From: Branchiostoma lanceolatum
Taxonomy: Eukaryota; Chordata; Leptocardii; Amphioxiformes; Branchiostomatidae
Assembly (NCBI RefSeq): GCF_035083965.1
Contig: NC_089738.1
Span: 5,975,398-6,039,397, forward strand
Direction of reading: 5' to 3'
DNA length: 64,000 nt
Numbering within the stretch: the stretch's first letter is position 1; each line of letters begins with the position of its first letter. The notes beneath the pieces are model-generated. The model worked only from the letters and a program-made list of their open reading frames with translations. It was not told the origin of the DNA and made no database searches. A program made the position numbers and the translations under genes. This document shows, one piece after another, positions 6,301 through 40,600 of the stretch.

Positions 6301-9142
6301 TACATTATACATTGGCATCAGTAAACATTATGTTACAGTACAAATTACAATGAAGTGACAACAAAGAATCTTCCATCAAAACAAATACTAATAAAAATAC
6401 ACCATACAAGACATTTAGGGGGCTATGCATTTTCTAATTGATTTGGTAGTCATGCTAGAATTTCTACTTAATAAAACCTTTGCAATGAATGGCTAAGTGA
6501 TTAGATTGTTCATTTTGCTTTTAATAGATCTTGAGTTCGATCCGTAGCCAAGTCATACCAAATACTTTTAAAATGGTACATAGTACTACATACTGCCTTC
6601 TCTACTTAGCACTCAGCACTTGGGACTTGGGAGTTGAACAAACACCACTAACAGTGGACTAGCCCCCTGCTGTAGTGATTGCACAATGTTGTGTGGCCCA
6701 GCGCTGAAGAAACAAAGATGGGTGCCACCCTATGCATCAACTGGTGCGTGGGGTCGTGCGGCACAACGGCAGAGCTACGGCTCAGAGCCAAGTAGTCCTG
6801 GGTTCGAATCCTATGATGTCACTGATCCTGTGCCCTTGGAAAAGTCATTTTACACGACTCTCCTCACTCCACCAAGGTGTAAATGGTATGTGATTTTTGT
6901 TGGGTAAGGTTGTATTGAGGTAACCTGGTGGTGCCGAATGGCAGCTGCCCAGACCCTGGTGAGTTCCACAAAACGCAAATGTGTTGCCCATGTGTATCTG
7001 TTGCCCATGTGTATTATGATTGTGATTATTGTAAACCCTGCACCAATTCAGCACTAGAAAATAAAATATAAGGCTGCCATTGCACAGGTAATTTCTGACA
7101 ATAAAAACCATTATTAATCTCTCTCTCTCTCTTCTCTCCATTTAAACGTCTCTTATTCCCCATCATATGGGGGTTGGACGTGCTTACACATGGATGGGGG
7201 AGCTCCAGAACTCCTCATCAAGTGCAAGTCTTTTTTGTAGCAAGAGTTTTTACGGCTGGATGCCCTTCCTAACGCCAACCAAACCCCTTATGCAGGGATG
7301 AGGACATGGGAAATATGGAGTAGAATTTCCCAAGGCACAACGTCTGGGTGCATGTCCAGACATGTCTGGGTATACCCCTGGAGATTGAACCTGGGTCTCA
7401 TTGGTTCATAGCCGGATGCACTGACACTATGCCACACAGACGCCACATTATGACTAACTATAATTTCTAGTACCTACCTGTTCTTGTTCCTCAGCCTTCT
7501 CTGCATACCCAGTGGGCATGTGGAAGTGTGTGGTGGACAGGGCGTCTGCATCTGTGAACCTCACAGGACGATTAAGCTGCTTCAGGTCTATGTCCTGCAC
7601 AAAAACACATGTTGTTTAAAAAAAACAATAGCAGATTTCTGCTAGACCAATTGGTTAATATTCACTTGTCTCTATGAACTTGAAAACTTTCCGACAAGAA
7701 TGTTTAAAGCCTTTAGTAAGATGTACATGTAAGAATAATTGACACAAGCATATATTTTTGTACAACAGATGTTCTGTAGAATGGCTTTTCTGCAGCTGTT
7801 AACTGAATCGAAGTACAAGATGACATACCTGTAAGGGGTCAGGTTTGGGAGGGGGGAGGCTGGCTATACGAGCTGCTCTTTCCTTCTCCTCCTCAAGTGC
7901 TGCTTTCCTGCAAGACAAAATTCAACAAAAGATTTCTTTGCTCCCCTCTTAATCAAAGATCTAGAGTTTTGAGCAAGATCTAGAGTAACAGTGCTTAAAC
8001 AAATTTTAAGCTGCTGTGGCTTAGCAATTTCAGTAATACATGTATCTAGACTAAGTATATGATATTGCACATTTGTGTCACATTATCGATTAAAACAGAT
8101 AGAGTTGGACATCATATTGGTCATGTCCCCTTAAGTTACATGAGGTGGTTGTTTAGGGATATCATACCTTGAGACAATGTGAGCTTTCTCTCCTTGCTCC
8201 TTCTGTTCCCTAAGGACCCTTAAGGCCCTCACGGCTTTAACATGTCGCTCATCCGCCTTCCTCTGATCCTCCACAGCCATGGCAAACCTCAGGTCATAGT
8301 CTGGCACCTTGGCAGGGAAAATATATAATAGAGGGTGACCAAGCTTAAGCAGGCTATTAGCTAGCAAGGTGTCAGGGCGTCTTCTGGACAATCAGAATTT
8401 AGATGCCCTTGTGTTGCAGGAGAGGCCCAGAGGACACCCTGTTTCCTTGGTAATTACATACACATGTACTAGTACATGTGTTACCCGTACACATACTGGC
8501 CAATGATTTTTTTATTAGCCTCTACCAGGCCCCGTCCTATCGCTGGGAAAATAGTAGAAATCGGCCGAGGTAGACCGCTATACAGGGTAGTACATTTAGT
8601 ACATTATTGATAATGGAGCTTCATTGTATAGCAGACTACCCTGTAAAGCGGAGTACCTCGGCCGATTTCTACTATTTTCTGTTACTGTACTCCTTTTTTT
8701 ATTCATACCGGACACTGAGACTACAGTACATACATGTACAAATTGATGCAAAGCTACTAGATAATTGACAATTATTCATAGAGCCCATTGGGGAATTCTG
8801 GTTCTGCCCCACCTCCCCCCCCCCCCAATTTTGGACGCCACTTAATTATAGTACAAATCCTGGCTAAAAACTTGTGTAAGGGAATCATTCTGTATAATAG
8901 TTGAACAATCATCTTACATTTTCTTTGGCCTCCTGATGTGCTTCTCCTACTTTCTTGACACTGCTGTCATATAGGGTCTGTAGGGACCTCTGCTTCTCCT
9001 GCTGTTCATGATGCCACTCTTCCTGCAAAGACAGTTCATTCACAATCAATTTCACATACAAGTCACATGCTTACATCAGGGTTAAATGATGGAATTTTCA
9101 AATCCATTGCAATGGATTAGACATATACTGGTAAGTGCAGGC

Positions 9143-9207
<65 letters not shown>

Positions 9208-10534
9208 AACACACAAAAACACACACACATGTACATATCAATAGCCAAGACTGCAATTGACAATCCAGTCATACCTTGCACATGTGTATACAGGGAAATA
9301 TGTAATGTAGTGCACACACTACATACATGTATTATTAATGGGTTTCTGTATGGCTAACTAGTAAGAATATGTGTTAGCCTGGAAACCATACCATCAGGAG
9401 CCCCCCTGTAATCTACGACTGGTAGAGACTGGTCGCCAGGCTATCATTATCAATGTGTAGGATGGAGGGACAAACCTTCAGTTCTGCTGCTATCTTGCTG
9501 ATCTGTTGTTCCTTTCTATCCTTCACATCCTTCCTCACCTGACTGGCAAATGCCTTTTCCTGCTCTCTCACCTGCAAAAAGTGATAATTATAATTACCTT
9601 CGCCGAGAAGGTTATGCAGAGGATAGCGTGTGTGTGTGTGTATGTATGTAAAGAAGCAGAATAACTGGAGAAGGCCTGGATGGATTGTCTTCATATTTGG
9701 TAGGAGGGTAGATCTTGATGAGACCTGGAAATGATTAGATTTTTTAATGATACAAACGATAGAAAGGAATTCTAGTTTCCATTAAGTTAACATACAGAAC
9801 AGGAGTCCTTACAAGTAGCTTAAGCCACAGACATTGTCATCTAGAGATGATCTAAATATGTTAATGTTGTTAGTCTATGAAATCTGATTGGTTTTTGCAA
9901 TTAGCAATTCATTTTTTTCCGACCAATGTAGCAACTGATGTTTCTCCCTTTGAAAAACATACTGTCAATATTGCCGACATATAGTCAAGGACGAAGTGGC
10001 TACTAACAGGATGATCCTGTCAGCAGTAGACAAATTTGCACTGCTCACAGGATCATCCTGTCAATAGCTATCCTGTCAATAGATATCTTATTAATACCAT
10101 AGTGACACCAAATTCTTATTGACAGGAATATCCTGTCCATAGTGCCAACAAATTCTTATTGACAGGAATATCCTGTCCATAGTGCCAACAAATTCTTATT
10201 GACAGGAACACCCTTTCCATAGTGCCAACGAATTCTTATTGACAGGAACAACCATTCCTGTCAATAAGAATGTAAATTGGCATTATTGACAGGATGTTCC
10301 TGTCAATAAGAATAACTTGCCAACACATTCTTATTGACAGGAACGTTTTGTCAAAAGTTAAGTTATAACTTATAGCATAGGCCAAACAAGAATTGTTTCT
10401 CCTAGTTTTACCTGCTGTAACCTAAGTTTCCGCCTTCTTTCCTTTTCGTCTTGGATGAGACGGGCCTCCTCGTTTGGACTGAGTTTCAGGAGCCGCCTGC
10501 TGGCCACTTTACGTTTCACCTTGGACTGCTGCAT
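355..10534 (-). CDS. CEP295: CEP295-like centrosomal protein, 5' 14 coding exons (partial)
   Basis: Coding exons in transcript order: 10534-10412, 9571-9476, 9022-8918, 8307-8168, 7907-7829, 7594-7478, 6292-6152, 5621-5538, 5222-5123, 4337-4137, 3467-3261, 2608-2376, 1554-1123, 525-355. All junctions are GT-AG and the phases join into 743 in-frame codons. The start is the ATG at 10534, giving MQQSKVKRKVASRRLLKLSP, which matches the vertebrate CEP295 N-terminus (KRKV...RLSPNEEA). Other family matches are VREQEKAF (exon 2), ASLPPPKPDPL (exon 5), EQAFEDMYMAQTG (exon 9), VNLKRLLDKIKNQR (exon 11), ALLHPREEAKRIRAEAAKHQ (exon 12) and the Gln-rich coil of exon 13. The protein is charged and mostly coiled coil, with a less ordered Pro/Glu-rich stretch in exons 10-12. 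CEP295 family proteins act in centriole-to-centrosome conversion and centriole wall stability. The 3' part, including any C-terminal ALMS motif, lies left of the window. A 5' noncoding exon probably ends at the GTAAGA donor at 11434. Confidence 0.93.
1930..2035 (-). mobile_element. Diverged tRNA-derived SINE fragment
   Basis: Minus strand GTGGTGTAGCGTAACGATTA head and GTTGTGCCCTTGGGAAAGGC body; the B box is damaged. Confidence 0.65.
2160..2327. mobile_element. MITE, ACTGTAAATGCA family, copy 1
   Basis: Inverted ends ACTGTAAATGCAGAAATGTT and AATGCATTTTACAGTA with AAAACCACC/GGTGGTTTT-like inner repeats; CEP295 intron. Confidence 0.8.
3762..3910. mobile_element. MITE, ACTGTAAATGCA family, copy 2
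   Basis: TACAGTGTAAATGCAGAAAT to ATGCATTTACAGTA, inner GCGGTGGTTTTATG and AAAACCACCGCG. The least diverged copy with its ends. Confidence 0.85.
4562..4700 (-). mobile_element. tRNA-derived SINE head
   Basis: Minus strand GGGGTCGTGTGGCGTAACGG has a perfect A box (TGGCGTAACGG), then GGTTCAAATCC as B box, then the body GTTGTGTCCTTGGAAAAGGC and CTCACTCCACCCAGGTGTA. Confidence 0.8.
4882..5055. repeat. Interspersed repeat GTTAGACATCCAGG family, full copy
   Basis: Hairpin-like unit starting GATGAAGGTTAGACATCCAG, with CAACTGGATAAAATTT and inverse TTTTATCCAGTT. Relatives: 10605-10665, 10998-11190, 38062-38200, 42380-42480 with 42700-42770, 47234-47370 and 51648-51785. The lectin intron copies were carried along by the tandem duplication. 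Confidence 0.8.
5962..6078. mobile_element. MITE, ACTGTAAATGCA family, degraded copy 3
   Basis: CTTAATGCAGAAATGTTCAC to ATTTCTGCATTTATGGTA; the inner part is shortened. Confidence 0.7.
6485..6625 (+). mobile_element. Second SINE family, diverged copy
   Basis: GAGTTCGATCC B box, then CATACCAAATACTTTTAAAATGGTACATAG and CTTAGCACTCAGCACTTGGG, parallel to the 60.6-kb copy. Confidence 0.6.
6741..6900 (+). mobile_element. tRNA-derived SINE head
   Basis: Plus strand: GGGGTCGTGCGGCACAACGG, B box GGTTCGAATCC, body CTGTGCCCTTGGAAAAGTCA and CTCACTCCACCAAGGTGTA. Same family as 4562-4700. Confidence 0.8.
7140..7445 (-). mobile_element. tRNA-derived SINE, near full length
   Basis: On the minus strand a tRNA-like head (GTGTGGCATAGTGTCAGTGC, B-box-like GGTTCAATCTCC) is followed by the shared body CGTTGTGCCTTGGGAAA and, further on, GGCGTTAGGAAGGGCATCCA, a segment I recall from SINE-like repeats of many animals. 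It ends in an AG-rich tail. The most complete of the SINE copies here. Confidence 0.75.
8330..8460 (-). repeat. Interspersed repeat GACGCCCTG family
   Basis: GTGTCAGGGCGTCTTCTGGACA and AGAGGACACCCTGTTTCCTT recur inverted at 18650-18785. Borders are unclear. Confidence 0.6.
8547..8679. mobile_element. Small foldback MITE
   Basis: GAAAATAGTAGAAATCGGCC at the left is inverted exactly at the right, with a second inner pair around CCGCT..ACAGGGTAGT. CEP295 intron. A half copy of the same end is at 22854-22874. Confidence 0.8.
9144..9232. repeat. (CA)n microsatellite
   Basis: About 90 bp of CA dinucleotides, slightly impure at the right, in a CEP295 intron. Confidence 0.95.
10005..10350. repeat. 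Tandem array, ~40-bp unit, in CEP295 intron
   Basis: Starts with the same AGGATGATCCTGTCAGCAGTAGA segment type seen at 16740, then changes to a 40-bp unit with CTTATTGACAGGAATATCCTGTC. The dyad GACAGGA..TCCTGTC is kept in most units. It lies between coding exons 1 and 2 of CEP295. Confidence 0.8.
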
Positions 10535-11866: not shown

Positions 11867-12244
11867 GTGAGTTTTTAAAGTTATTTTTTTCACAAATAAA
11901 CGCAAAGATACACAATAGAAAGGTTTTCCAGTTGTTCTTAGGTGTAAAAACGTCCCCTTTGTGTAACAAATTTGGATCAGAAGCTATGATTTGTTGAAAA
12001 ACAGACGCCGTGTTTGAAAAGTGGGAGGGGGGCACAGCTCTCTCGAGTTGTTACACGCAAACTGAAACTTCAGCATATGGTTTGTAAAGTCAAGGACATT
12101 TTATATATAGGACCCTGGTAAAGTGTATGATATGAGGGCGGAAAAATTGTACATACAGAGGGTCACAGAGCCTAGTGATGCTTTAAGTTTAAAACTTAAA
12201 GTATCACTCGAAGGTGTAGGGTCATACACGTACAAAATATTATC

Positions 12245-12725
12245 GGGGAGGGAGTGCTGAAATCAGATCCCATTCAGATCCTGTATAAACAAGGAACAAA
12301 AACAGGCATAAAACTACACTTACCAGTATTTCAATGTCCCAAAACTTCCACCCAATGAACAGCCAAACATGTCTAGTTGCTGTTTTTGCAAAAAGCAGGG
12401 GTTTGACTCCTGCCTTCTGAAGCGATATTGGCCATCGAACGTAAACAACCACTGACCTTTGAACCGGCAGCTGGGAGACACTGGTCTGGCCCGGGATGGA
12501 AAACCCCCTCCCAGATGATGTAATTCTAAACCACCACAAGTGGCAAAGGTCACAATTTTTTTCTGGATTTGAAAAGTAAACATATGTCTGGTCCCCCTGC
12601 CTGAAAACTGGCCAAAAGCGACCAAAGAGTTCACCAGGAAAAAATTCTCAAAAATAATAACAAGAAAATAAACGTGGACCTTCAAACTGGGCTTTCTGCG
12701 CATGTCTATTAAGAGGTCCCTCCCC
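12245..12725 (+). repeat. Left 481-bp direct terminal repeat of the 4.4-kb element
   Basis: Begins GGGGAGGGAGTGCTG and ends GGTCCCTCCCC; nearly identical to 16165-16645. Long minus-strand reading frames cross both copies but look like by-products of conservation. The segment GGTTTGACTCC near 12415 resembles a pol III B box with one mismatch. The repeat is followed by TTACAGG on its inner side. Confidence 0.85.
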
Positions 12726-13327
12726 TTACAGGTGATCCAGCAACGAGATAGACAGATATCACTAAAATCATGTTGTACAGGAAAGGGTTCTTAGCAATAT
12801 CCCCAAAAATTATAGTCCTCCTATCATCAACGAAGATATGACAGGTAGTTATCTAACAGGTGTCAGCTATGCCCTGAGTGCTTGCCTGTACTGGCAGTCA
12901 GCACATGCCTGTTCAGAGAAGCTGGGGGAGTTACAAGGCTACAACCGGTCATTAGGGACAAGTCAATTATCAGATCATGATTTTTTTGTCAACAGTGACA
13001 TTCAAGACACTGACTTGATCACTTGGTGTCTGATTGACACCTATTCTTGACACTTTGAAACCAATTTTACACTTTGACAGCAAGGGGTAGCTGGTACTGG
13101 GATTTGGGTGGTGTCAGTGTGAACAGAGTGACAATCTTACCAAGATTTACTCAAGATAGACATCATATTTCGGTCCATCATACAGTTCACACCTGTAAGA
13201 TGACTAGCATATTCCAGGAAACTGGGGGGGGGGGGGTGTACAAGCCAATTTCTGGGTCCTTCAAGTCTCACAGACTTCCCCCAGTCAGCACTTAAACTTC
13301 TTGGAATTGGGCAGGCAGGGGTAAGGG

Positions 13328-15571
13328 GTGACGTCAGGCTCTCTCCCCTGTGACCATTCATCATCAGCCCACCTCACTTGTCAAGAAAGCTTTAAAATGA
13401 AGCCACAACAAGTAAAATCTCAGAAACACGCCAGCCCAGCCATGGGACGCAAGAAATCCAGCAAGGAGAGGCCTACCGTCTTCAAGAAAGGTTACACACC
13501 CCACAACAAGGGCATGAAGATTCAACATGTCACGCCAGCAACACCTGTCTACCGCAGGGTTTCGGAAGACAACTTCGAGCTACTACAGGACACAGACCGA
13601 AGAGGCAACCTCTTGATACGCCCGAAGAAAGTAGCTCTTGAGAAGAGGAGGGTGATGCTTCTCAGGCCAAAGAAGGAGCCATGCAGCAAGATCGCGAGAG
13701 CTGTGGCAAGAGGATACACCCGGGATGATGCAAGAGATGACAACTTAGACGACTTGGTTGGCTATCGTATCTGGCTGGCACGAGATGCAGTAAAAGCCTG
13801 CACCAAGGCACAGAGAGACCATGATCAAGAACATCCAACCTGCAAAGCACTGGTCCGTCTATCAGCCAAGTTAGAGAGGAAAGTGGGGCTTGCCACATCA
13901 GAAACCTTCGTATGCGACAAGTGCAAGTACAAGTCCAAAGGAAAAAAGTTCTATGACGAGATTGACAAGGATGCAGGACAAGGATGCAGGAGAGGAAGAA
14001 AGGTAGCTGTGCCCAACATGGCTGTTCAGGTGGCATTGGCCAACAGCTCCATTGGAGTGGCTGCCTTCAGACAGTTTGCCGCAGCCATGGACCTACCCGT
14101 GCCTGCTTCCAGCCAGATGAGAAAAAATGCACGCAAGTACAGCGACTTGATGGTGCGGGAGAACAAAAGGGACATGAAAGCATGGAGTGAAAAGGTCAAA
14201 GAGATGAACTCCATACTTGGCAACGCACCGGACAGCCCCATAAAGGGTGAGGCGGACTCCAGATACAAGAGTGCCTTGTATGCAGGACTTGGAAAAAAAC
14301 CTGGCCAGCCATCACCCCACGCTCACAGTACGTTCTGTGAGGGTGTCACTGCACGCCGACTAATCCTGGCCCACTTTTTAGCGCAGAAGCAGTGCTCAAC
14401 TTGTCAGCGGCAGCAGCTCCGACGCAAACGTGTGAGACCTGGGAGAGTGCAGAAGGCAAAGAAACACAAATGTACTGCAAACTTGAAACAGCATGATGTT
14501 ATAGGGAATGAGGAACTTGCTGGTAGAGAGATTGGGAAGAAACTCCTGGCCAACAAGGTCCTGGTAAGCCACATTCTAACAGATAGAGACAGTCACTTTG
14601 CCAAGGGCCTGTCTGAAGTCATGATGGAAGCAAGAGGCAAGCGCACAAAACCGCTGAGGGACTTTGTGCACATGGGCAGGAGCGTGGCCAAAGCTGTCCG
14701 CCACGGAACTTGGAGCAAAGAAATGTTCCCTGGCAACACAGCCGCAAGGAGAAACAAGGTAAAGTCCCGATTTGCAGAGGAGCTGAGGGTCCGACTGAAT
14801 GCAGAACACGACAGTGCCGTGCTGAAATTTGGCAAGAGGAGACAAAAGATGGAAGCTGCGATGGAAGACGTAATGGACGCTATACCTTCATGCTACATGG
14901 GCACTCACGATTTCTGCTCGACGCATTCCATGGTGTGCAATGCCAGGAGGAGGTGGAAGACAGACAGACGGTACCTACCTGTCAAGTGCTTACACCCAAA
15001 CAGCTCGGACATCAAAGAACTCAGACGGATAATGGAGAAGAGACTGGGGAAGAAGGCCTTAGAGTCTACAAGATACTGCATGGACAGCAACAAGGCTGAA
15101 TCTGTCAACCGCCAGTCAAGTAAGAATGTGCCAAAAAGTGGGAACTGGATTGAGACCTTACCTGGGAGGTTTTCCACGACTGTACACAGCTCGAACAATG
15201 GTCCGGCCTTGTCAATCGTGAAGCGTAGAGCGGCAGCAGGTATTCCGTTATCTCCGATGTCGCCGACAGTTAAAGCCCTAGAAAGCATGGAAAGAGATAG
15301 GCTTCACCGCAGGAAGTATAGGAATGAACCGGAGTGCAAACAGAGGGCCTTGGCAAACAGAATTCGTGGGTTCAAAACATACGACGAGCTGCAGGAGATG
15401 GGAACCTACAAGTCAGGTAACGTTCCTAGTGCGGAGAAGAAGAGGAAGGTGGTGACCAAGGTGCCGAGAGGAAAGGAGGACCATACTTACAACAGAATGG
15501 AGGGGGAAGGACCAACTTCAAACTCAGACTCTTCAGGCTGGACTGATACTAGTGGTGATGAAACAGACTGA
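13328..15571 (+). CDS. Mutator-like DDE transposase ORF, apparently intact
   Basis: A 747-codon uninterrupted ORF; the likely start is the third in-frame Met (13442, MGRKKSSKERPTVFKKGYTP) or the second (13397). Numbering from the first Met, the N-terminal region is basic, a CDKC zinc knuckle lies at 196-199, and candidate catalytic acidic residues are D310 (GEADSRYKSAL), D419/D421 (ILTDRDSHFAKGL) and E591 (DSNKAESVNR). A CSTC/C pair sits between the first two acidic residues (356-359, 382), as Mutator-like proteins often show (CKGC). H448 follows the second Asp. The C-terminal part NGPALSIVKRRAAAG and the acidic Ser-rich tail have no assigned role. It would cut and join the element ends. Composition is GC-richer than the surrounding intron. 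The superfamily call is by motif layout only; a different DDE family is possible. Confidence 0.65.
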   Translation: MTSGSLPCDHSSSAHLTCQESFKMKPQQVKSQKHASPAMGRKKSSKERPTVFKKGYTPHNKGMKIQHVTPATPVYRRVSEDNFELLQDTDRRGNLLIRPKKVALEKRRVMLLRPKKEPCSKIARAVARGYTRDDARDDNLDDLVGYRIWLARDAVKACTKAQRDHDQEHPTCKALVRLSAKLERKVGLATSETFVCDKCKYKSKGKKFYDEIDKDAGQGCRRGRKVAVPNMAVQVALANSSIGVAAFRQFAAAMDLPVPASSQMRKNARKYSDLMVRENKRDMKAWSEKVKEMNSILGNAPDSPIKGEADSRYKSALYAGLGKKPGQPSPHAHSTFCEGVTARRLILAHFLAQKQCSTCQRQQLRRKRVRPGRVQKAKKHKCTANLKQHDVIGNEELAGREIGKKLLANKVLVSHILTDRDSHFAKGLSEVMMEARGKRTKPLRDFVHMGRSVAKAVRHGTWSKEMFPGNTAARRNKVKSRFAEELRVRLNAEHDSAVLKFGKRRQKMEAAMEDVMDAIPSCYMGTHDFCSTHSMVCNARRRWKTDRRYLPVKCLHPNSSDIKELRRIMEKRLGKKALESTRYCMDSNKAESVNRQSSKNVPKSGNWIETLPGRFSTTVHSSNNGPALSIVKRRAAAGIPLSPMSPTVKALESMERDRLHRRKYRNEPECKQRALANRIRGFKTYDELQEMGTYKSGNVPSAEKKRKVVTKVPRGKEDHTYNRMEGEGPTSNSDSSGWTDTSGDETD

Positions 15572-15584
15572 CTTGAACTTACCT

Positions 15585-16073
15585 TTAACCTTCAAAAATA
15601 CAATCCGGGTAGCCAGGATGTCCCGTGCACTCGCGCTGAGAATGACATCTCTGTCTGTTATTGTTGATAATATGCGGTTCTGCTGACAAGTGTTCAGGAT
15701 TTACACAGAGACGAACATGACAGCGATGCGATATGTCTTTGCCAGCTATGTCAAACTGACCTGTCCAAGCCATGTAGGCCACTCTATGAACATTGATTGG
15801 TCTTCTATTTCTTTTCTGTAAAGGTAATTCTTCACCTGGCATCCAGGGCACATAGATGCGACCATAGTTTGTTCTTGCACGTACTTGTCCAGTCCAAATC
15901 CAGCAAGATTTAGTCAGGTGACGCCTTGTCTTTTTAGTAATTTTTCTCTTGAACTCTATCTGCCAACTGACATTGTCAAATTGCTGTGCCATTTTGTGTG
16001 AATAGCAGTTAAATGGTGAATAAAATTGAAAATTCTGAATGGTAACCGTCTCTGTCATGTGTTCTGGTGTCAA
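15585..16073 (-). CDS. I-PpoI-like His-Cys-box (His-Me finger) endonuclease ORF
   Basis: The ORF has 162 codons; the likely start is the internal Met at 15992 (MAQQFDNVSW), giving 135 aa. Motifs in order: SCWIWTG...NYGRI, VHRVAYMAWTG, SHRCHVRLCVNPEHL, IINNNRQRC, CTGHPGYPDC. They follow the I-PpoI layout as recalled (AHRLVYALFHG, SHLCHNTRCHNPLHL, DDNKGRNWC, C...C). The first His of SHRCH is the expected general base, the Asn in NNNRQRC the metal ligand, and Cys/His of the RCHVRLCVNPEHL and C-terminal clusters the two zinc sites. It ends 13 bases from the transposase ORF, tail to tail, inside the same terminal repeats. A role in element mobility, for example target or donor cleavage, is inference; it could also be a separate homing gene that invaded the transposon. 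Confidence 0.75.
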   Translation of the reverse strand: MTPEHMTETVTIQNFQFYSPFNCYSHKMAQQFDNVSWQIEFKRKITKKTRRHLTKSCWIWTGQVRARTNYGRIYVPWMPGEELPLQKRNRRPINVHRVAYMAWTGQFDIAGKDISHRCHVRLCVNPEHLSAEPHIINNNRQRCHSQRECTGHPGYPDCIFEG

Positions 16074-16164
16074 TTACTGATATAGTTTGCATAAATTAGC
16101 AGTTTAGAGTGATTAGAGGGTACCATTAGTATATGGCCCATTTCCCTCACCCCTCCCCAGTACA

Positions 16165-16645
16165 GGGGAGGGAGTGCTGAAATCAGATCCCATTCAGATC
16201 CTGTATAAACAAGGAACAAAAACAGGCATAAAACTACACTTACCAGTATTTCAATGTCCCAAAACTTCCACCCAATGAACAGCCAAACATGTCTAGTTGC
16301 TGTTTTTGCAAAAAGCAGGGGTTCGACTCCTGCCTTCTGAAGCGATATTGGCCATCGAACGTAAACAACCACTGACCTTTGAACCGGCAGCTGGGAGACA
16401 CTGGTCTGGCCCGGGATGGAAAACCCCCTCCCAGATGATGTAATTCTAAACCACCACAAGTGGCAAAGGTCACAATTTTTTTCTGGATTTGAAAAGTAAA
16501 CATATGTCTGGTCCCCCTGCCTGAAAACTGGCCAAAAGCGACCAAAGAGTTCACCAGGAAAAAATTCTCAAAAATAATAACAAGAAAATAAACGTGGACC
16601 TTCAAACTGGGCTTTCTGCGCATGTCTATTAAGAGGTCCCTCCCC
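16165..16645 (+). repeat. Right 481-bp direct terminal repeat of the 4.4-kb element
   Basis: Nearly identical to 12245-12725. It is preceded by CTCCCCAGTACA, so the junction reads as a near-palindrome CTCCCC-AGTACA-GGGGAG, as if one element end abutted another. This copy has a perfect B-box-like GGTTCGACTCC near 16322-16332. The outer flank is TATC. Confidence 0.85.
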
Positions 16646-16739
16646 TATCATGCAACTGTTGCATATAACTGTTATGTATGAATTTTGTATGGGGTAGCTA
16701 ACATATAACTTTATACTATAGCTAGGAAGTGGCTACAAG

Positions 16740-16945
16740 ATAGGATGATCCTGTCAGCAGTAGATAATGTGCACTGTTGACAGGATGATCCTGTCAGCAG
16801 TAGAAAATGTGCGCTGTTGACAGGATGATCCTGTCAGCAGTAGAAAAATGTGCACTCTTGACAGGATGTTCCTGTCAGCAGAAGAAAAATTGTACTGATC
16901 CTGTCAGCCGTGCAATTTTTTCCACTGTTGACAGGATCATCCTGT
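16740..16945. repeat. Tandem array, ~40-bp unit built on a palindrome
   Basis: About five units spaced 40-41 bp apart, each carrying TGACAGGATGATCCTGTCA (an odd-length near-perfect palindrome) followed by a CAGTAGAAAATGTGCACT-like spacer. Later units diverge (GATGTTCC, truncated). The array runs directly into a short MITE at 16945. Confidence 0.8.
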
Positions 16946-21435: not shown

Positions 21436-24094
21436 CTAAGCAAGGACTTCACAAATGTAGTAGTAAGAACGTGGGCAATTACTATCATTCCAGCGGTAGT
21501 CCTTATCAGGGTAGATGTGAGCACAGTTTTCCCCTGTGCCACTGTTTGGTTCGCCTGTTCCCCAAATCCCATCACCAGCCAATAAGGTGCCGTCATCCCA
21601 AATCCACACTCCCTCCGTCTCAACGTCACTCAGCCCGATCCAGGTGTTTGCATGAGTTGTAGCTCTCACGTGATTTGCTAAGAAGTCGTGTGTCCAATTA
21701 GTCTTCACTGTTGCTAGGCGACCACCCTCTCCATGACAAGTATCCCGTGCCTCGCTGTACGGTTTCTGGTCGGTGGAGAAGCGGTAACAGGTCCTCTGGA
21801 ACTGCTGGTAGCCAGCCGGGCAAGTGGTAGGGGACTCTGTAGTGTTACAAGTGAATATACATGTACCTGTGTCCCTGATTCTCTCCTCCAACTGTGCAAC
21901 TCGCTCCTTCAGATTGTCTGTGATGTTCTTCTGTTCAGCCAATAGACTAGACAGGCGACTGATCTGCAAAATAGTTCCAAACTGTCAGGTGCAACTGTAA
22001 CAAGAGTTCCACGACCTCATATCTCCATGAACAATTCTATTCATGCAAATGACTTACACATTTGCATAATATATACTTGGTAATCAACACCTTTATCTAA
22101 CTTACACATGTTGCAATATTGACAGTCCTATATTTTTCCAATTAGATTAATTATGGTGTTTTGCATTAATTATGCAAATTTAGAATTTATTCGCATGATT
22201 GGTATCTGTTGATGCTCCACTTTCCATAAACTACATATGTCACATGGATTTGAGTCTGATAACGGAAAACACTGACTGCAAAATGCAAATATAGATTTTC
22301 CTCATTACCTATGCAAATTAAGTGACAATTAGCATAATTTGCACTTCATCATGTATATCTCTGTCTACGCTACCTGCATACTAAGTATCATGTTGACAGT
22401 CCTATAACTTTCCAATTAGATGAGATATGGTGTTGTGCATTAATTATGCAAATTAGGAATTTATTTGCATAAATGGTATCTGTTGATGATCCACTTTCCA
22501 TAAGCTACATACGTTACATGTATTTAAGTCTGATAATGGAAAACACTGCAAATACAGATTTTCCTCATTAGGTATGCAAATCAAGTCCCAATTAGCATAA
22601 TTTGCATTTCATTGTGTATATCTCTATCTAAGGTACCTGCATACTAAATTTCATGGGAATCCGTCGTTCCTTTGTTCAGTTATTCTCCATAGAAGATTTT
22701 CACAAAAACACCCCTGCAGTTCCAGAAGAAGCTGCTAGGGGCCCAAACCTACACCACTTCTTTATTACATCACAAGCTATCTATCACCAAAAACCAAGAC
22801 CACAGCACGTCCATCAAGTTAATGTTTTCCTTTGTGCGAAGTGCGGGTCGCTGGGAAAATAGTAGAAATTGGCCAAATAGATACAAAAATTGAAGTTCTG
22901 CCCCAGTACCAAGGTCATATACCAGGGGGCCCAAAATCGACCTTAACCTTTGGCTTCACAACACCCGCCCACATACCAAATATCATCATAATCCATCAAA
23001 AGGCTCTTGAGGTATGCTGACTAGAGTGGTCCGGAAACACAAACAGACAGACAAACAGACAGATACACCCAAAACAATATCTCCATTTTTCATGGAGATA
23101 ATGATATGTAGGGCAGGTGGCAGTAGTGGCTAGATATTGGACATGTCACATCAGTTCAGGCTCTAACAGAAAACGTAACAAATTTAAAGCTACAGAAAGG
23201 CAACTAATAAGCTAAATTGTTATATTCGTAGGAAGTGACCGCATATAGTGCCAAAACGTTAACAATCAAATATATAATGATACAATTTTGTTGCACATTA
23301 TCAAAACTGAATTTCTTACAATATTGATAGACCGTTCTGGGCCCACAACGTTTCACTCTGAATAGCCAATCTTAACATCAATTGTGTGGTTCGACGTTAC
23401 CTCAGACGTCGCCGAGTCGTTCTGAAGTCGTGCGATCTGCACCTGCTGGGCGATCAGCATAGCTTGGATGTCCGCAAGTTGCTGTAATTAATATTCAGAA
23501 ATACGCCATGGATTGTTGTTACGGGTAACGTATAGTCGATGCCGCAGATCTAGACCTCTTTTGTTTTCCCCAGAAATTCGAGTTATGCCCCATTGAGGAA
23601 AAAGAATGCGTGAATTCGCAGGCCTGAGATACGGTCGCCATCTTTCAATCGTTTTCTTGGTTAACCCTAAAATTCACATCTGATTATTCCGACAACATTC
23701 TAAGGACAGCAGTTTAACAAAACATTGGAAATGTTTTGCAAAGTCAACGCCAGACCAATGCAATGCTAGACGTACTGTACTTCGAAATACTTGTTCTTAC
23801 TCCGGCGTTTCCTACACGGAATACGTCGTATAAAAGCTGTATAAAACCTTTTGAAGGATCTGCGCGTGGTTTAAACCTTTAATAGAACCGTACGTTTGCT
23901 TATTATAAGGGACATTTGTAAGACAACATTACTATTCAAGATGGCTGACATACCCCGTCGAAGTTGCAAGTCTGGGTTCCAACGTTGATCACTGGATTAC
24001 AGACACATTTCTCTTCCGAGCCCCGGCAGTTTAATGTCTGTTCTCCCTTGCATTCCAAGGCAAAAAGTATCATAAGCATGTAAGTCAGAGACAT
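21436..24094 (-). CDS. Secreted C-type lectin 1 (three exons)
   Basis: Exons 24094-23954, 23481-23401 and 21963-21436 (stop TAG), all phase 0, 249 aa. Exon 1 encodes a signal peptide (MSLTYMLMILFALECKG) and a short Cys module (EEKCVCNP...TCNFDG). Exon 2 is a heptad-like coil (QLADIQAMLIAQQVQIARLQ). Exon 3 holds more neck (LLAEQKNITDNLKERVAQLEERI) and a long-form CTLD with six Cys, WIGL, EPN and WND motifs. EPN plus WND is the calcium site of mannose-type lectins, so this is probably a secreted oligomeric carbohydrate binder, likely immune; that is inference. Oddity: unlike its paralogues it has no intron between neck and CTLD. A 30-base GT...AG remnant of that intron (21866-21837) stays in frame and adds GTCIFTCNTT, including two extra Cys. 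Confidence 0.88.
22020..23105. repeat. Interspersed repeat, TCTCCAT-end family, with internal duplication
   Basis: Segment 22020-22330 is repeated at about 22330-22640 (GACAGTCCTATA..TTTCCAATTAGAT). The copy then runs through GGGGGCCCAAAATCGACCTT and ends CTCCATTTTTCATGGAGATA. Relatives: 24370-24735, 56484-56808, 61708-61880, 62940-63470. It fills the lectin 1 intron. Confidence 0.7.
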
Positions 24095-26182: not shown

Positions 26183-29100
26183 CTAACCGTAGATTTCACA
26201 AATGTAGTAGTAAGAACTCGGGCATGTACTATCATTCCAGCGGTAGTCATGAAAGCCGTATATTGATAAGTGAGCACAGTTTTCCCTTGTGCCACCGTTT
26301 GGTTCGCCTCTCCCCCACACCCCCTCACCAACCAATAAGGTGCCGTCATCCCAAACCCACACTCCCTCCGTCTCCATGTCACTCAACCCGATCCAGGTGT
26401 GTGATTGAGCTATGGCTCTCACATGATTGGCCAGGAAGTTGTGTGTCTCGTTAGTCTTCACTGTTGCTAGGCGACCACCCTCTCCATGACAAGTATTCCG
26501 TGACTCATTGTACGGTTTTTGGTCGGTGGAGAAGCGGTAGCAGGTCCTCTGGAACAGCTGGTAGCCAGCAGGGCAAGTGGCGGGGGATTCTGCGGGATTA
26601 GAAGTGAATATTCCTACTCTTTAACGGTTACACTTGAGAATTCTACAAAATCGTAACCAAACGTATGTCGCAGCGATGTCTATTTCCATACACAAACCAT
26701 GCAGTTCTTCGAAATTAGGAATAATCAAATTCTGATCTGCTTCCTTCTCTTTAGTAGTTCATCCACGCCTATCTTCAGTTACATACAAGAGAGTGCATAC
26801 ATGTGTCTGGCAAATAAGGATATACCTGTGGCCCTGATTCTCTGCTCCAACTGTGCAACTCGCTCCTTCAGACTTTCTGTGATGTTCATCTGTTCAGCCA
26901 ATAGATGAGACAGGCGACCGATCTGCAAAATAGTTCCACATGTTCAAACCGTCAGATCCAACTGTAACGATAGGACAAGTGACTGTAGCTGATGCATAGG
27001 CTTGTAGACCGTCATAAATAGTATCAGTAGTGTGCAGGTGCATTTGCGCTTAAGATTTCCGTGTCATTTTTTTGTGCTCATCCCTTCCGTCTTTTAAAGA
27101 TATCATATTGCTCTCTCCAACAAAGTTTAAAGATCATTTTGACATTTGCCTGATTAGGTTAGCCTCCGATGCAGACTCCTCCCGGCTGTTTTCTTTTTCA
27201 AGTTACAGTTTTTATACTATTATTTTTTTTTCTTACTGCTGGCCGGGAAGGAGACTGCGTCCACTCGGCGCCATCAAAGGAAATTAAAAATCACTTAGTG
27301 GCAATCGGCATGGACTTGTGAAGTCCGCGCTTGATCCGCGGAGGGTGCACGCACCGCTGGCTCCACGTTCTCACGCCAGCAATAAGAAAAAGAAATGTAA
27401 TAGTATAAAAACTGTAACTTGAAAAAGAAAACAGCCGGGAGGAGTCTGCATCGGAGACTAGATTAGGTGATCTTGAGAATCAAAAATTCTGTAGTCTCAG
27501 GTTACCTCAGAAGTCTCCGAGTCGTTCTCAAGTCGTGCGATCTGCACTTGTTGAGCGATCAGCATAGCCTGGATGTCCGCAAGTTGCTGTAACACGGCAT
27601 GGATTGATTATGAGTAGCATCTTCGTCTGCGTCATTGCATACTTTAATCGAACATGTTTCGGAGGTGTGTTCAAAACGTTTGAGACCTTATCAGGAAACC
27701 AGGGGGGTGGGGGGGGGGGGTATCAAAATTCGGGTCATAGCTATAAACTATAGGACCTCCTATCTACTCTCCAAGCAGAGGTTGGTGGGGAAGATTGTGA
27801 CATTTTTATCAAATGCCCCGTATTTTGTATGCAACCTCTGCTTGGAGAGTACTAGAGTACTTCTATTAGCTTCACATCATTTTGATCATTTATTTATAGC
27901 GACGCTATTTCAAAAATCAGTAGGTAAGAAAAATTGACTATAACTGTGTTTGTTCCTTGTGTCCCCAAGCTTAAGCTGCGAAATCAACAAATACCGTGAT
28001 TGTTAAAATTATTGTCGGGGATTCCTTTCGTTTTTCAACACGTATAAGTGAATATCAGACTTTTTACGGGATAATGGAGATATCAGAAGTTGATACGCTC
28101 ACCGGTATCCCTGGTTATAGCTCAATTTCCCGTTTTTCCCACCTTTGATATACCATGCTGATTTGATTACATGGATGACATCCACGCGCGCATCAATTTA
28201 CGTCCGTTTCCACACAAAAAATTTTGGCCATACTGTTGATCCTACAAAGCAGCTGCAAAATTAAAAAAAAAAACACTTTTTGAATTGCAAAACATATTTT
28301 GGAAAACGGATGCTAGTGTTATAGAATGTCCAAGTCAGTTCCAAAGTCAAAGAAGCTGTTTTGAAAGTCAAAATATAAAGAATCTATATTTCGGAATACC
28401 ATAGTCTGTGTGTTTCGTTTCGTTCATCCTTCTTGACCACGTAGATTATATAATGAAGGCAACTTTTTTTCCAAACTTTTTTTTTATTCGCACGCTTCAT
28501 ATAATCAAATCAACATGGCCTTACTGATTTTCAAAAGGATGTCACCTGCAAGAAAATGGTCCCAAGGATTTGAATTTCGATCAGTGACCAGTAAGGCCTT
28601 TTAGTTTTTCAACGAAATCTTTGTTTAGCCCATTCTTTCTTCGCAAACGTTTTGAACCGTTCAACGCACCTCCAAGTGTAACAGGATTCAGTTTTAAAGG
28701 CAGGCTAAACTTAATTTCGTAAAGCATACTGCAGTATGTTAAATATACCACTAATACCAGTTCTGACTTCTTTTACATGAGTCAATCATAGATTAGCGTT
28801 TTTACAATATTTGAAATTCGCGGTGTGGTGATGTAATACAGCTGGCGATGTCCAGAGACTTTTGACCTTTGTGACATCAGATTCCGAGTCGGCCGCACCT
28901 GCACCATAGGAATTGCTCCAGACGCCATTCCTCCGACTCGGAATCTGACGTCACAAAGGTCAAAGGTCTCTGGACATCGCCAGTATTACATCGCCACACC
29001 GCGAATTTCAAATGTTGTAAAAACGCTAATCTATGATGGACTAGTGTAAAACAAGTCAGAACTGGTCTTAGTGGTATATTTAACATACTGCAGTTTGCTT

Positions 29101-31585: not shown

Positions 31586-32089
31586 TTTAAAAAAACATAT
31601 ATATGTGGAAAAACAACAGAGACATTTCAGTTTTAAGGAAAGTTTTTCCTACGCTGGTGGCTATCATTAAAAAACAAGAGTGCTTATAGGTTTTAACTTC
31701 AATGATAATGATCATGTGTCGTCTCAATTATTGTCATCTGATGAAAATGATTATAAGATAGAGTTGCTAAAATAAAACGTTGAGAAATCTCAATTTTCAT
31801 AACAATTAAATGATATCATTTTTCATGCATGCCACTAGGAATACTATTTTACCCTAACATGCATCTGATTTAAGGGCTGGCAAAAGGGTTTACACTGCAC
31901 GAAAAGTGGTATTTACCGTAACGGTAAATGTGATGTAAAGTCTGGTAAAGGTTACATTTACCTGCTATTTACCGGACATTTACCCGTTGGTAAAGGTGCA
32001 GATTTACCCGGCATTTACCGGGTATGGTAAGTCCGGTAATGGTTGCCTAAATTTACCCACATTTACCCAGGTCATGTAAAGCTGCATTT

Positions 32090-32680
32090 ACCGAGATTTA
32101 TCATTCGTGGTATAAGTCACAGTTACTGTCATTTACCCGCCTATACGGACGGTGTAAATATGCATTTACCGAGATTTACCATTCGTGGTATTAGTCACAG
32201 TTACTGTCATTTACCTGCATATACGGACGGTGTAAATATGCATTTACCAAGATTTACCATTCGTGGTATTAGTCACAGTTACTGTCATTTACCTGCATAT
32301 ACGGACAGTGTAAATATGCATTTACCGAGATTTACCATTCGTGGTATTAGTCACAGTTACTGTCATTTACCTGCATATACGGACAGTGTAAATATGCATT
32401 TACCGAGATTTACCATTCGTGGTATTAGTCACAGTTACTGTCATTTACCTGCATATACGGACGGTGTAAATATGCATTTACCAAGATTTACCATTCGTGG
32501 TATTAGTCACAGTTACTGTCATTTACCTGCATATACGGACAGTGTAAATATGCATTTACCGAGATTTACCATTCGTGGTATTAGTCACAGTAACTGTCGT
32601 TTACCCGCCTTTACGCGGAGTGTAAATATGAATTTACCGAGATTTATCATTTGCGTTATATCTCATACTTAGCGGCATTT
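32090..32680 (+). repeat. 78-bp tandem repeat array (about 7.5 units)
   Basis: Units read ATGCATTTACCGAGATTTACC...GACGGTGTAA with few differences. Because 78 is a multiple of three, an open frame of 209 codons crosses the array (MHLPRFTIRGISHSYCHLPA repeated), but this is most likely a by-product. Each unit keeps TTTACC boxes like the element's subterminal repeats. Confidence 0.9.
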
Positions 32681-35787: not shown

Positions 35788-36299
35788 TCCCTTCAACTAT
35801 CAAGCCTCTTCTTGGTCTATTGTCAACCATAGTAGACTATGGCAGTACCATGTTTCACGAGGTGATACAACGGCTCATCCATGCCAAACGAACAAGGCCG
35901 AACGGTTTTTGCCTCCATTTTCGAAATTCTCGCCGCCCACTTGAGCGCATGCGTGCCTCAACTGACCAATCAGAGGATGTTGACCTAGTCGCGACCATTC
36001 CACTATCTCGCGGGGGTCGCGAAGACAAAAGATGGAGAAATGTCGCTTTTGTCAATAAATTCTAGTATTAGTATGAAGCCGCCCCCCTTTAATTGCCATG
36101 ATTTTATCAAAAAGCCTCCCAAGAAAGGCTTTCAATGTTTTAATGTCCTCTGTCATCGCGGGGTCTAGGCACCTACGTTTATACCCTTGTATCATGCCTT
36201 GTGCGTATGATATAAAATACTATGATATATAACAGTTATAAGTTCAGCTTTGTTATATACTGTAGTAAGTTTGGAGACTCATTTCTAACTGAGGCCTTA

Positions 36300-37320
36300 A
36301 CTAGGCCTCTTAACTGGGCCTCTTAACTGGGCCTCTTAACTGGGTCTCTTAACTGGGACTCTTAACTGGGACCTTAACTGGGACCTTAACTGGGACCTTA
36401 ACTGGGACCTTAACTGGGACCTTAACTGGGCCCTTAACTGGGCCCTTAACTTGGACCTTGACTGGGACCTTAACTGGGACCTTAACCGGGCCCTTAACTG
36501 GACCCTTAACTGGGACCTTAACTGGGACCTTAACTGGGACCTTAACTGGGCCCTTAACTGGGCCCTTAACTGGGCCCTTAACTGGGCCCTTAACTGGGCC
36601 CTTAACTGGGACCTTAACTTGGACCTTAACTGGGACCTTAACTGGGACCTTAACTGGGACCTTAACTAGGCCTCTTAAGGGGGCCTCTTAACTGGGCCTC
36701 TTAACTGGGTCTCTTAACTGGGTCTCTTAACTGGGACTCTTAACTGGGACCTTAACTGGGACCTTAACTGGGACCTTAACTGGGACCTTAACTGGGACCT
36801 TAACTCGGCCCTTAACTGGGCCCTTAACTTGGACCTTAACTGGGACCTTAACTGGGACCTTAACTGGGACCTTAACTGGGCCCTTAACTGGGACCTTAAC
36901 TTGGACCTTAACTGGGACCTTAACTGGGACCTTAACTGGGACCTTAACTGGGACCTTAACTGGGACCTTAACTGGGACCTTAACTGGGACCTTAACTGGG
37001 ACCTTAACTGGGACCTTAACTGGGACCTTAACTGAGACCTTAACTGGGACCTTAACTGGGACCTTAACTGGGCCCTTAACTGGGCCCTTAACTGGGCCCT
37101 TAACTGGGCCCTTAACTTGGACCTTAACTGGGACCTTAACTGGGACCTTAACTGGGACCTTAACTGGGACCTTAACTGGGACCTTAACTGGGACCTTAAC
37201 TGGGACCTGGGACCTTAACTGGGACCTTAACTGAGACCTTAACTGGGACCTTAACTGAGCCCAACTCGGCCCTTAACTGGGCCTTTAAACTGGGACTCTT
37301 ACTGGGACTGTTAACTGGTA
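36300..37320. repeat. 12-bp satellite (CTTAACTGGGAC)n, about 1 kb
   Basis: More than 80 units of CCTTAACTGGGA type with ordered variants: GGGCCTCTTAACT at the start, then GGGACC, then GGGCCC blocks. The larger pattern GGGCCTCTT, GGGTCTCTT, GGGACC, GGGCCC recurs at 36665-36830, so there is a higher-order period of about 370 bp. Coding frames crossing it are artefacts. Confidence 0.92.
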
Positions 37321-37638: not shown

Positions 37639-40600
37639 CTAACCGTAGATTTCACAGATGTAGTAGTAAGAACTTGGGCATGTACTATCATTCCAGAGGT
37701 AGTCCTTAGCAGGGTAGATGTGAACACAGTTTTCCCTTGTGCCACCGTTTGGTTCGCTTGTCCCCCACATCCCCTCACCAACCAATACAGTGCCGTCGTC
37801 CCAAATCCACACTCCCTCCGTCTCCACGTCACTCAGCCCGATCCAGGTGTGTGCTTTAGTCGTAGCTCTCACGTGATTGGTCAAGAAGTTGTGTGTCTCG
37901 TTAGTCTTCACTGTTGCTAGGCGACCGCCTTCTTCGTTACATGTGTGTTGAGACTCGTTATACGGTTTCTGGTCGGCGGAGAAGCGGTAACAGGTCCCCT
38001 TGAACAGCTCATAGCGAGCTGGACAGGTTATGACAGCGTCTGTAGTGTCAGTAATAGATAGTTGTGTTGATGAAGGTTAGACATCCAGGTAATAAGATGC
38101 GCAAAATGATCAGCTCAAATGACAGTTATCAAAGCAACTGGAGAAAAATTTCGAAAATTTCTAGATTTTTATCCAGTTGCGTAACTGTCATTTGACGTAA
38201 TAGAAAGCTGTGTCCATTAAAGCGTTAACCAAAAATCTGTTGATAAATTCCCCTTTAACCCTATCCAGACTGGGGGGGGGGGGGCTAAAAGTGCCCGCGG
38301 CAACTTTGACATCGTATTACTGCCTAACGATGTATGCTACGACTACCAAACTTGGTGACTTTTCCTAAAATTTTGTTGGGAACAATTTTATACTAATGGT
38401 TTAAGTTAATCATTTTTCATGTTGCCATGGCAACGGGTTTCTGACAGGCATTTTATGCAAAAATCGTTAATTTTTTGAAAACATTGATATTTCTCAGGTT
38501 TTCTTGCACAACTACACTAGTTTTCCTACATGTATAACATTATATGTAATTAGATGTAACTTTCCTGATTTAATATTCATAATTTATGCTAATTTGATGA
38601 CGTAACCGGTCGAAATCCAAGATGGCGGACTATATCACTATTTCAGGTATCAGCAGGCTTTTTCGCCTTTAAAATGGTCAATACCTGACATTTTCTTTAT
38701 CAGAAACATTTAGATTAACGTTTATAGTCTATTTTCAGTGTCCTTTGGGGTCATAAGGGGAAAAAAAGGATTTTTAAAAATTTCAAAATGGCCGATCCAA
38801 GATGGCGGATCCCAAGGGATCGCTAACAACACATGACGTCACTCTATGGCGTCATTTTGACGTCAACGTACTTACCATTGACGTTGTATGCCTCGCATAC
38901 CTTAGAATGAATAATACAAACCGTTTTGTTTAATACCTTTAGATATTACGGGAATTCCCTATTTAGCCAATAAAATCACATCGATGACGTCATAATTACG
39001 TCATATTACGTCATAACGTCACCAAAATTACAGGAATTATAAAACTTGACGTGAATATCACTCCCTGCAAATTTGGTGATGATACATCATACTGTTCGGA
39101 AATTATGAGGGGGGGGCCGAATCAGCCCCCCCCCAGTCCCAGATATACCAAAAAAGCCCAGTCTGGATAGGGTTAAATCAATGTTTTAACCATTCTTGCC
39201 CTTGATCTTGTCGTTAAAATACTGTTTTAGTTATTTAGCATAGAGAGTTAAGTAGTGCTTAACCAGAGCATTACACAGGAAAATATACAAATGATACCTT
39301 TGGACCTGATCCTCTCCTCAAGCTGTTCAACTCGCTCCATCAGACTGTCGGTGATCTTCTTCTGATCAGCCAATAGACTCTGCAAAACAACCCATGCATT
39401 CTTCATATCAGATTGATACATGTATACATTATATTTGTGTATATATGACTTTTGGACAGCTTACGGTGGATTAATCACATCTCAAGGACTTCTCTTCGCG
39501 TAACTTATTTTAAGATATGGATATATATTTTTTGTGCATGTTCACTTGTGTAATAAGGTACTCATAAGACACCACACCCCTAGAGGAAGGAAGCCTTAGC
39601 TTACCTCAGAGCTTTTGGAGTCGTTTTGAAGTCGTGTGATGTGTGCCTGCTGGGCAATCAGCACCGTCTGGAGGTCCGCCCTGTGCTGTAATAGTCAGAA
39701 ATATGGTACATGTATTGATATGGAGGCTGTGATCGTATCTCCGTCTGCGCTGTCATTTGCACTAAGCTTTAATCCATGAAGTTATGAAGGGAATTTCTAG
39801 GCTGCCAGCTTGGATTGTACGTGCGTGAAAACAGCAGATTTCCAAATTTGTTAAAACGATATCCATTTATCTGAAAATGATTTCTTTGGGCTGATTATCC
39901 ATTATAATGAACCGTGATGATGGGGGATACAGGCTTAGTCACATTTGGGACCGCATTCTTCACAGCAGCGATACCTAGCAGCGGAAAGTAGAACCAGTCA
40001 CCATTGCACTAAGAAGAATATCAGAAGGACTACAGAAACGTCCACGGACAGGTAAATCTCTTTGATTGTTCAACAAAATCTATTATATCCATTTATTTTT
40101 AGTCGTTCAAAGCAAGAACATGTGTGTTCGTCCGTCAGTCTTACAATATATGGCATACCAAGAAATGAAAAGAAAATCAATGCTCATTATTATGAGCAAC
40201 AATCAGCTAGTTTGTTGCCTTGGCATGACTTCGCAGGTCTGATCGTACGTAAACCCAAGGTTAAGGGCGCAAGCTGACCCCTATAGCTTACTTGCTGTGT
40301 GATTTACACCAGGCTTCAATCACCCCAAAACATTGCTAAAGCAGGATATTCAGTTGACAGTTTGCCAAGTCAGCTTCAGGTCAACAGCCAGACATAGCTA
40401 GAAAGACATTTCCTTCTCCACCACTTCTATAATTTCTAAGAAAAATAGGAGCATATTATTTCGGCATTATCAACGGGCATTTCGTACACACACACCATCA
40501 GCGACGTTAACACTTGCAGGTTTTGAGAAGAAAGTATTTCAGAACAGTTTCAGCAATTTCCAAGACACCCAATGCAAAGATGGCCGACATACCCCGTCGT

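Follow-up and report, generated by a model that had tools for sequence, protein, structure and literature searches.

The closest described counterpart of the lancelet element reported here is KolobokP, catalogued as 228 families of transposons (Kojima & Bao 2022, Mobile DNA 13:24, PMC9587614). That paper describes an LTDR-INT-LTDR architecture, recurring in many families, in which two long terminal direct repeats (LTDRs) enclose an internal region (INT). The LTDRs measure ~450 or ~660 bp (families with 473 and 480 bp are counted as ~450), seem to move alone and bear short terminal inverted repeats (TIRs) of their own, up to 18 bp overall; those of the oyster families span 11-18 bp and may be perfect or imperfect. 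The termini are 5'-RR ... YY-3', and the target duplication is 3-5 bp with strong site preference absent. A DDE transposase is encoded on the direct strand; in it, a CCHC motif follows the first D, and C/DxxH plus another zinc finger precede the last E. The complementary strand encodes an I-PpoI-like nuclease. Hosts include three Branchiostoma species, and the autonomous oyster families have total lengths of 4022-4748 bp. Clustering in that study used cut-offs of 75% length and 75% identity.

Two wider comparisons can be made from PMC9587614. The Kolobok superfamily as first described shares with our element the RR...YY termini, a 4-bp duplication and the order of the DDE motifs. Its defining target duplication is TTAA, whereas that of the present insertion is TATC, and our element differs further in its long direct repeats and its nuclease ORF. 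Bacterial composite transposons (IS-flanked) likewise carry cargo between two end-bearing repeat copies; the transposase lies in the flanking repeats there, whereas it is central here.

The window (the whole 64-kb stretch of DNA that was analysed) contains an LTDR-INT-LTDR element of 4401 bp. Its anatomy, domains, TIRs and flanks are as follows.

12241-12244, no strand: left target-site duplication, TATC, matching 16646-16649
12245-12725, plus strand: left LTDR, 481 bp, identical to 16165-16645 at 480 of 481 positions
12245-12253, plus strand: left 9-bp TIR, GGGGAGGGA, at the left end of the left LTDR and of the element; partner arm at 12717-12725
12726-16164, plus strand: INT, 3439 bp, starting TTACAGG and ending AGTACA
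13397-15571, plus strand: DDE transposase ORF, 724 aa from the first ATG, or 747 codons if from the GTG at 13328
14255-15100, plus strand: proposed catalytic triad, D287 (14255-14257), D396 (14582-14584) and E568 (15098-15100), an assignment inferred from the published motif order
15585-16073, minus strand: His-Me finger (His-Cys box) nuclease ORF, 162 codons from TTG, 157 from ATG (16058)
16151-16172, no strand: 22-bp near-palindrome CCCTCCCC-AGTACA-GGGGAGGG at the junction of INT and right LTDR, 10 of 11 pairs; possible nuclease or transposase target
16165-16645, plus strand: right LTDR, 481 bp
16637-16645, plus strand: right 9-bp TIR, TCCCTCCCC, at the right end of the right LTDR and of the element
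16646-16649, no strand: right target-site duplication, TATC, matching 12241-12244

The initial annotation had reported near-identical 481-bp direct repeats at both ends with TATC outside them, and this is borne out. The two LTDRs differ by one mismatch (12404 T / 16324 C) and no gaps. Both start with GGGGAGGGA and finish with TCCCTCCCC, and the borders GGGGAGGG / CCCTCCCC are present at both ends of each repeat. The TIR arms pair perfectly over 9 bp and at 13 of the first 17 positions. The element as a whole ends GG ... CC, which fits 5'-RR ... YY-3'. The annotation had also contrasted these direct repeats with the inverted ends of DDE transposons, a contrast that falls away because short TIRs bound each repeat and hence the element as a whole. 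TATC adjoins only the outer ends. The inner flanks are TTAC, 3' of the left LTDR, and TACA, 5' of the right, unlike each other and unlike TATC. Identity over 4 bp at such a spacing is found at 262 of 58,592 other window positions (0.45%). A BLASTN search of the 64-kb window detected no additional copy of the element's LTDRs, ORFs or any other part, and neither solo LTDRs nor multimers.

The transposase-like ORF is intact over 747 codons, as the annotation had it, from GTG at 13328 to 15571. No other stop-free frame closed within the window, as distinct from those running off its ends, reaches 220 aa; the longest frame in 200 single-base shuffles of the INT was 208. A Pfam scan of the element's two main ORFs, an HMM check that the annotation had proposed, matched the 747-codon version to PF20700 over the full profile (E 1.2e-53). 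Pfam labels this family 'Mutator-like', not Kolobok. Between the proposed triad residues lie a CCHC motif (C333, C336, H357, C359), a DxxH motif (D422-H425) and a C-x7-C-x2-H-x3-C finger, giving the order D, CCHC, D, DxxH, C-C-H-C, E. This pattern was drawn up after inspection of the protein, and an H-to-C spacing of 4 in the last finger, which gave no match, was reset to 3. The motif order published in PMC9587614 leads us to propose D287, D396 and E568 as the putative catalytic residues. NCBIfam contained no match to the transposase, and a phmmer search of the PDB returned 21 matches, all at E 0.27 or worse, which were taken as chance. Pattern-based scans for close relatives turned up 53 candidates in viral contigs and 19 in prokaryote genomes, but not one was confirmed. 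Of the two single-sequence structure predictions in this work (mean pLDDT 35.0 and 42.0), neither was good enough to use.

The second ORF is convergent with the first and separated from it by 13 bp. Its description as an I-PpoI-like nuclease is upheld by Pfam matches to PF05551 (E 2.6e-11) and HNH_3 (E 7.7e-8) and by the pattern SH.C....C....H...E....N.....C. This is the register S-H-x-C-x4-C-x4-H-x3-E-x4-N-x5-C, shared without gaps with I-PpoI and the His-Cys box homing endonucleases (PDB 1A73), and 12 of 28 core residues are identical to those of I-PpoI. Further C and H residues follow toward the C terminus in both proteins. The residues C57, C118, C123 and H128, and C143, C149, H152 and C158, are present and presumably form two zinc sites, roles that we assign by assumed correspondence with I-PpoI. 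The second site is spaced C-x5-C-x2-H-x5-C, which differs from the spacing in I-PpoI. Moreover, the nuclease here sits in a transposon, not in a group I intron.

A single-sequence phmmer search of the PDB with the nuclease gave no matches. A profile of five rows, four of them phage or viral-contig proteins, matched with weak E-values I-HmuI (0.0051) and five I-PpoI sequences (0.015-0.67), with one other protein, 3rj2, among them at 0.053. I-HmuI and I-PpoI are the pair that PMC9587614 reports from HHpred. One NCBIfam match, far under the cut-off (E 0.024), was taken as chance. In the libraries searched, phage HNH proteins match the nuclease best. Phage records yielded 717 matches at E<=1, all below 60% identity (the best 20 of 717 are listed), and phrog_826 matched at E 1.2e-16. 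In viral contigs, a pattern-based scan for close relatives confirmed four of six pattern matches, at four loci and 28% identity. With phage HNH endonucleases (phrog_826, phrog_1872, Gordonia phage GMA6 Orf79) the nuclease shares CW-x-W, YG and H...C-x3-LCV-x-P-x-H...N, which are invariant in an alignment of the nuclease and four relatives (n=5, 28-38% identity). These relatives differ in setting: they come from phage records or viral contigs, and the three phage genes inspected sit among ordinary phage genes.

We conclude that the element, inserted with a TATC target duplication, is very probably a KolobokP monomer within the Kolobok DNA transposons, autonomous and complete in structure. Six features that can be seen in a single copy were compared with the published description, and all six are present: (i) an LTDR of 481 bp, within the ~450 class; (ii) a TIR of its own, whose 9 perfect bp lie slightly below the 11-18 bp of oyster families if perfect pairs alone count; (iii) RR...YY ends; (iv) a target duplication of 3-5 bp, TATC/TATC at this one insertion; (v) a direct-strand DDE transposase with the published motifs; and (vi) downstream of it, a complementary-strand His-Me/His-Cys nuclease. 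The total of 4401 bp falls within the range of oyster autonomous families, and Branchiostoma is among the hosts. The claim that direct terminal repeats, DDE transposase and His-Cys nuclease make up one transposable unit is therefore supported. The word 'undescribed' fails, because the combination has been in print since 2022 as KolobokP, with Branchiostoma hosts (PMC9587614). The lancelet find is genuine and of a kind already published. The surprising combination, a composite-like transposon of eukaryotes that encodes two enzymes for cutting DNA, proves both real and already named.

Each repeat bears its own TIR, and LTDRs of published families seem to move alone (PMC9587614). Both points would suit a non-autonomous (MITE-like) element of 481 bp that inserted twice, independently, and happens to flank an unrelated transposase/nuclease pair. 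Neither repeat, however, carries a duplication of its own: the flanks of the individual repeats disagree (TATC/TTAC and TACA/TATC) and only the outer pair matches. The same arrangement also recurs across many published families in that source, and we regard chance flanking as very improbable. We consider it extremely improbable that the element belongs to a new composite-like lineage outside KolobokP that acquired LTDRs and nuclease independently. The phage affinity of the nuclease's top library matches would favour such an origin, and the likeness to KolobokP is judged by published description; against it stand all six features, LTDR length, gene order and strands among them, and, for a Branchiostoma host, the genus as well. 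The direct orientation of the terminal repeats recalls a retroelement (LTR- or DIRS-like) that has lost its reverse transcriptase. In line with the annotation's remark that reverse transcriptase is absent, just one ORF of at least 220 aa lies between the repeats, and it encodes a DDE-type transposase that Pfam matches over the full profile. The repeat termini are GG...CC, as opposed to TG...CA, and form a 9-bp TIR. The chance that this is a retroelement is negligible.

Near-identity of the repeats had been taken as a sign of recent activity. We take it as a weaker sign than in an LTR element, because DNA transposition would move both repeats jointly and recombination can homogenise them, and it does not serve as an LTR-style clock. 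The intact ORFs suggest recent activity more safely.

As to function, we infer DNA cleavage, transposition and a role for the nuclease within the element. The short TIRs (GGGGAGGGA...TCCCTCCCC) would be the substrate of the DDE transposase, which could move the entire unit enclosed by the outermost TIRs or else one LTDR on its own, as a non-autonomous passenger. The His-Cys nuclease would most likely cut within or at the edges of the LTDR, and repair between the repeats after such a cut would duplicate or restore the LTDR-INT unit. Nuclease-induced repeat repair is the published KolobokP model; its authors call it speculative, and state that the multiplication model awaits experimental validation (PMC9587614). 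A clean copy such as this, its two ORFs open, is useful material for testing whether, as proposed, a homing endonuclease maintains the direct-repeat structure of a DDE transposon.

Candidate nuclease sites were sought with a 15-bp query that we take to be the I-PpoI site. The best LTDR match, 9/15 around TTAA at LTDR position 465 of 481, is no evidence of a site because 298 of 300 single-base LTDR shuffles reach at least 9. Over the whole element the best match is 12/15, within the transposase ORF but on the minus strand (about 14060-14074); it was discounted because 12 was reached even by 7 of 300 shuffled versions of the LTDR, a sequence nine times shorter. Among 16-bp semi-palindromes within the LTDR the best has 6/8 pairs, no improvement on shuffled sequence, in which at least 6 are reached in 252 of 300 cases.

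The near-palindrome at the INT/right-LTDR junction resembles two abutted TIRs with a 6-bp spacer. It might be where the dimeric His-Cys nuclease encoded by the element cuts, giving a self-targeted break that would drive LTDR recombination and keep the composite structure in repair. We consider this unlikely; if true, a break site built into the element would sustain the composite structure through LTDR recombination. The palindrome is treated as a lead only, because it was noticed first and tested later, lies in a pyrimidine tract and is one of 63 window positions, chiefly in TA repeats, at which a 22-bp stretch forms at least 10 of its 11 pairs. When INT ends were locally shuffled, CCCTCCCC appeared in the last 28 bp in 9 of 20,000 shuffles. 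Its seven occurrences in the window, where 0.78 would be expected, comprise five in the element (four of these being LTDR ends) and two elsewhere.

Judged by its single-copy features against the published description, the 4401-bp element at 12245-16645 is an already described kind of transposon, KolobokP (Kojima & Bao 2022, PMC9587614). The initial annotation had listed it as a candidate undescribed transposon, a label that must be withdrawn, as all six of the single-copy features tested agree with the element in the window. The sections of the paper on architecture and distribution (PMC9587614) give a layout of two long terminal direct repeats (LTDRs) around an internal region (INT); LTDRs that measure some 450 or 660 bp and have their own terminal inverted repeats (TIRs) of up to 18 bp and RR...YY ends; target duplications of 3-5 bp; and autonomous oyster families of 4022-4748 bp. 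The direct strand encodes the transposase, and the complementary strand encodes the nuclease in most families. The catalogue lists 228 families; KolobokP is reported from 7 phyla, and its hosts include Branchiostoma belcheri, B. floridae and B. japonicum. The anatomy that had been reported here (direct repeats, TATC, transposase ORF and convergent nuclease ORF) is real, with coordinates, flanks and domains all confirmed.

Features of the element
12245-12725, left LTDR, 481 bp
12726-16164, INT, 3439 bp, with one long ORF
13397-15571, transposase ORF from the first ATG, 724 aa (13328-15571 from GTG)
15585-16073, minus strand, nuclease ORF, 13 bp between its end and the transposase ORF
16165-16645, right LTDR, 481 bp, direct

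Each LTDR begins with GGGGAGGGA and finishes with TCCCTCCCC, so that a 9-bp perfect inverted repeat closes each LTDR and the element as a whole; over the first 17 positions the match is 13/17. TATC lies immediately outside both outer ends, and the inner flanks, TTAC and TACA, resemble neither TATC nor each other. The outer pair alone is modest evidence, because 4-bp matches at the same spacing occur at 262 of 58,592 other window positions. Taken together, TATC, the TIRs and LTDRs ending exactly there read as a single insertion of the entire unit.

The two LTDRs differ by a single base, and near-identity had been taken as a sign of recent activity. This difference appears unsuited to LTR-style dating, since an insertion would not involve copying one LTDR from the other, and recombination can make both alike; the two open ORFs nevertheless suggest a young or selected copy. 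The differing base (12404) lies inside a B-box-like (tRNA) stretch, which matches exactly in the right LTDR (GGTTCGACTCC, 16320-16330; left counterpart 12400-12410). With 6801-6811 the window holds two matches (0.06 expected) to the B-box consensus, and a tRNA gene search of the window found none.

The transposase ORF is the sole stop-free frame of at least 220 aa among frames closed within the window, and matches the full Pfam profile PF20700 (Mutator-like transposase, E 1.2e-53). Its motifs run D287, CCHC (C333, C336, H357, C359), D396, DxxH (422-425), a C-x7-C-x2-H-x3-C finger and E568, in a pattern composed, and adjusted once, after the protein had been read. The passages on motifs in the paper give the same order for KolobokP and some related lineages (PMC9587614). 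D287/D396/E568 is assigned as a putative catalytic triad; it is an assignment, not proof, because the pattern is post hoc and the single-sequence fold (mean pLDDT 42.0) is too low to use.

The domains identified in the nuclease are PF05551, at E 2.6e-11, and HNH_3, at E 7.7e-8; the nuclease's predicted fold is unusable (mean pLDDT 35.0). A PDB search with the sequence alone gave no match. At a threshold of E<=1, a profile built from the nuclease and four phage or viral-contig relatives matched seven different sequences in the PDB: I-HmuI (0.0051), five I-PpoI sequences (0.015-0.67) and the uncharacterised 3rj2 (0.053). I-HmuI and I-PpoI are the pair named from HHpred in the paper's account of the nuclease (PMC9587614). 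The core aligns with I-PpoI without gaps (12/28 residues identical) and retains S-H-x-C-x4-C-x4-H-x3-E-x4-N-x5-C, a register covering S97, H98, H110, E114 and N119, the residues that this account terms conserved (PMC9587614).

As to origin, the paper traces the nuclease of KolobokP back to an endonuclease of a eukaryotic group I intron (PMC9587614). The top matches in the libraries searched were phage HNH families, phrog_826 clearly (E 1.2e-16) and Gordonia phage GMA6 (E 2e-6), an unfair contest with an intron-endonuclease origin because these libraries were compared without a eukaryotic set. The solved I-PpoI is matched weakly, via the profile, and the phage HNH families clearly.

Read from the anatomy in the light of the paper, the transposase would act on the short TIRs and may mobilise the entire monomer or a lone LTDR. 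The nuclease probably cleaves in or at the LTDR, leading to recombination that would duplicate or restore LTDR-INT; the induced-crossover model is speculative by the paper's own word (PMC9587614). The end of INT, ...CCCTCCCC-AGTACA, forms with the start of the right LTDR, GGGGAGGG, a 22-bp near-palindrome (16151-16172, 10/11 pairs), the additional CCCTCCCC, which is terminal LTDR sequence, sitting 6 bp ahead of the right LTDR. The arrangement resembles a pair of abutted TIRs with 6 bp as spacer. For a circular intermediate, the paper proposes abutted TIRs as a possible semi-palindromic target of the nuclease (PMC9587614); here a junction of this type is present in the linear element. When INT ends were shuffled locally, CCCTCCCC fell within their final 28 bp in 9 of 20,000 shuffles, for a palindrome tested after being noticed, in one copy and in a pyrimidine tract. 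Equally good or better palindromes occupy 63 window positions (16151-16172 included), mostly TA repeats, and the junction as a putative nuclease target is a small lead. An I-PpoI-like site sought inside the LTDR gave no match above shuffles; a 12/15 match, with no shuffle control at full length, lies within the transposase ORF.

Elsewhere in the window, five similar C-type-lectin-like open stretches lie on the minus strand (21436-21984, 26183-26620, 37639-38076, 46806-47246 and 51209-51688), with Pfam Lectin_C in both of the two scanned (E 7.7e-22 and 5.2e-22). Such lectin-like exons around the element are consistent with an animal source, though they are no proof of Branchiostoma. Some are contained in duplicated blocks, for example 46747-49446 and 51160-53826 (90% identical). 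Tandem arrays occupy 36286-37318 (12-bp unit, about 86 times) and 32075-32651 (about 7 copies of a 78-bp unit, crossed by an open frame). Two minisatellites of 40-bp period, 10097-10248 and 16742-16888, have palindromic GACAGGA...TCCTGT motifs in common, and the latter starts about 100 bp beyond the right end of the element.
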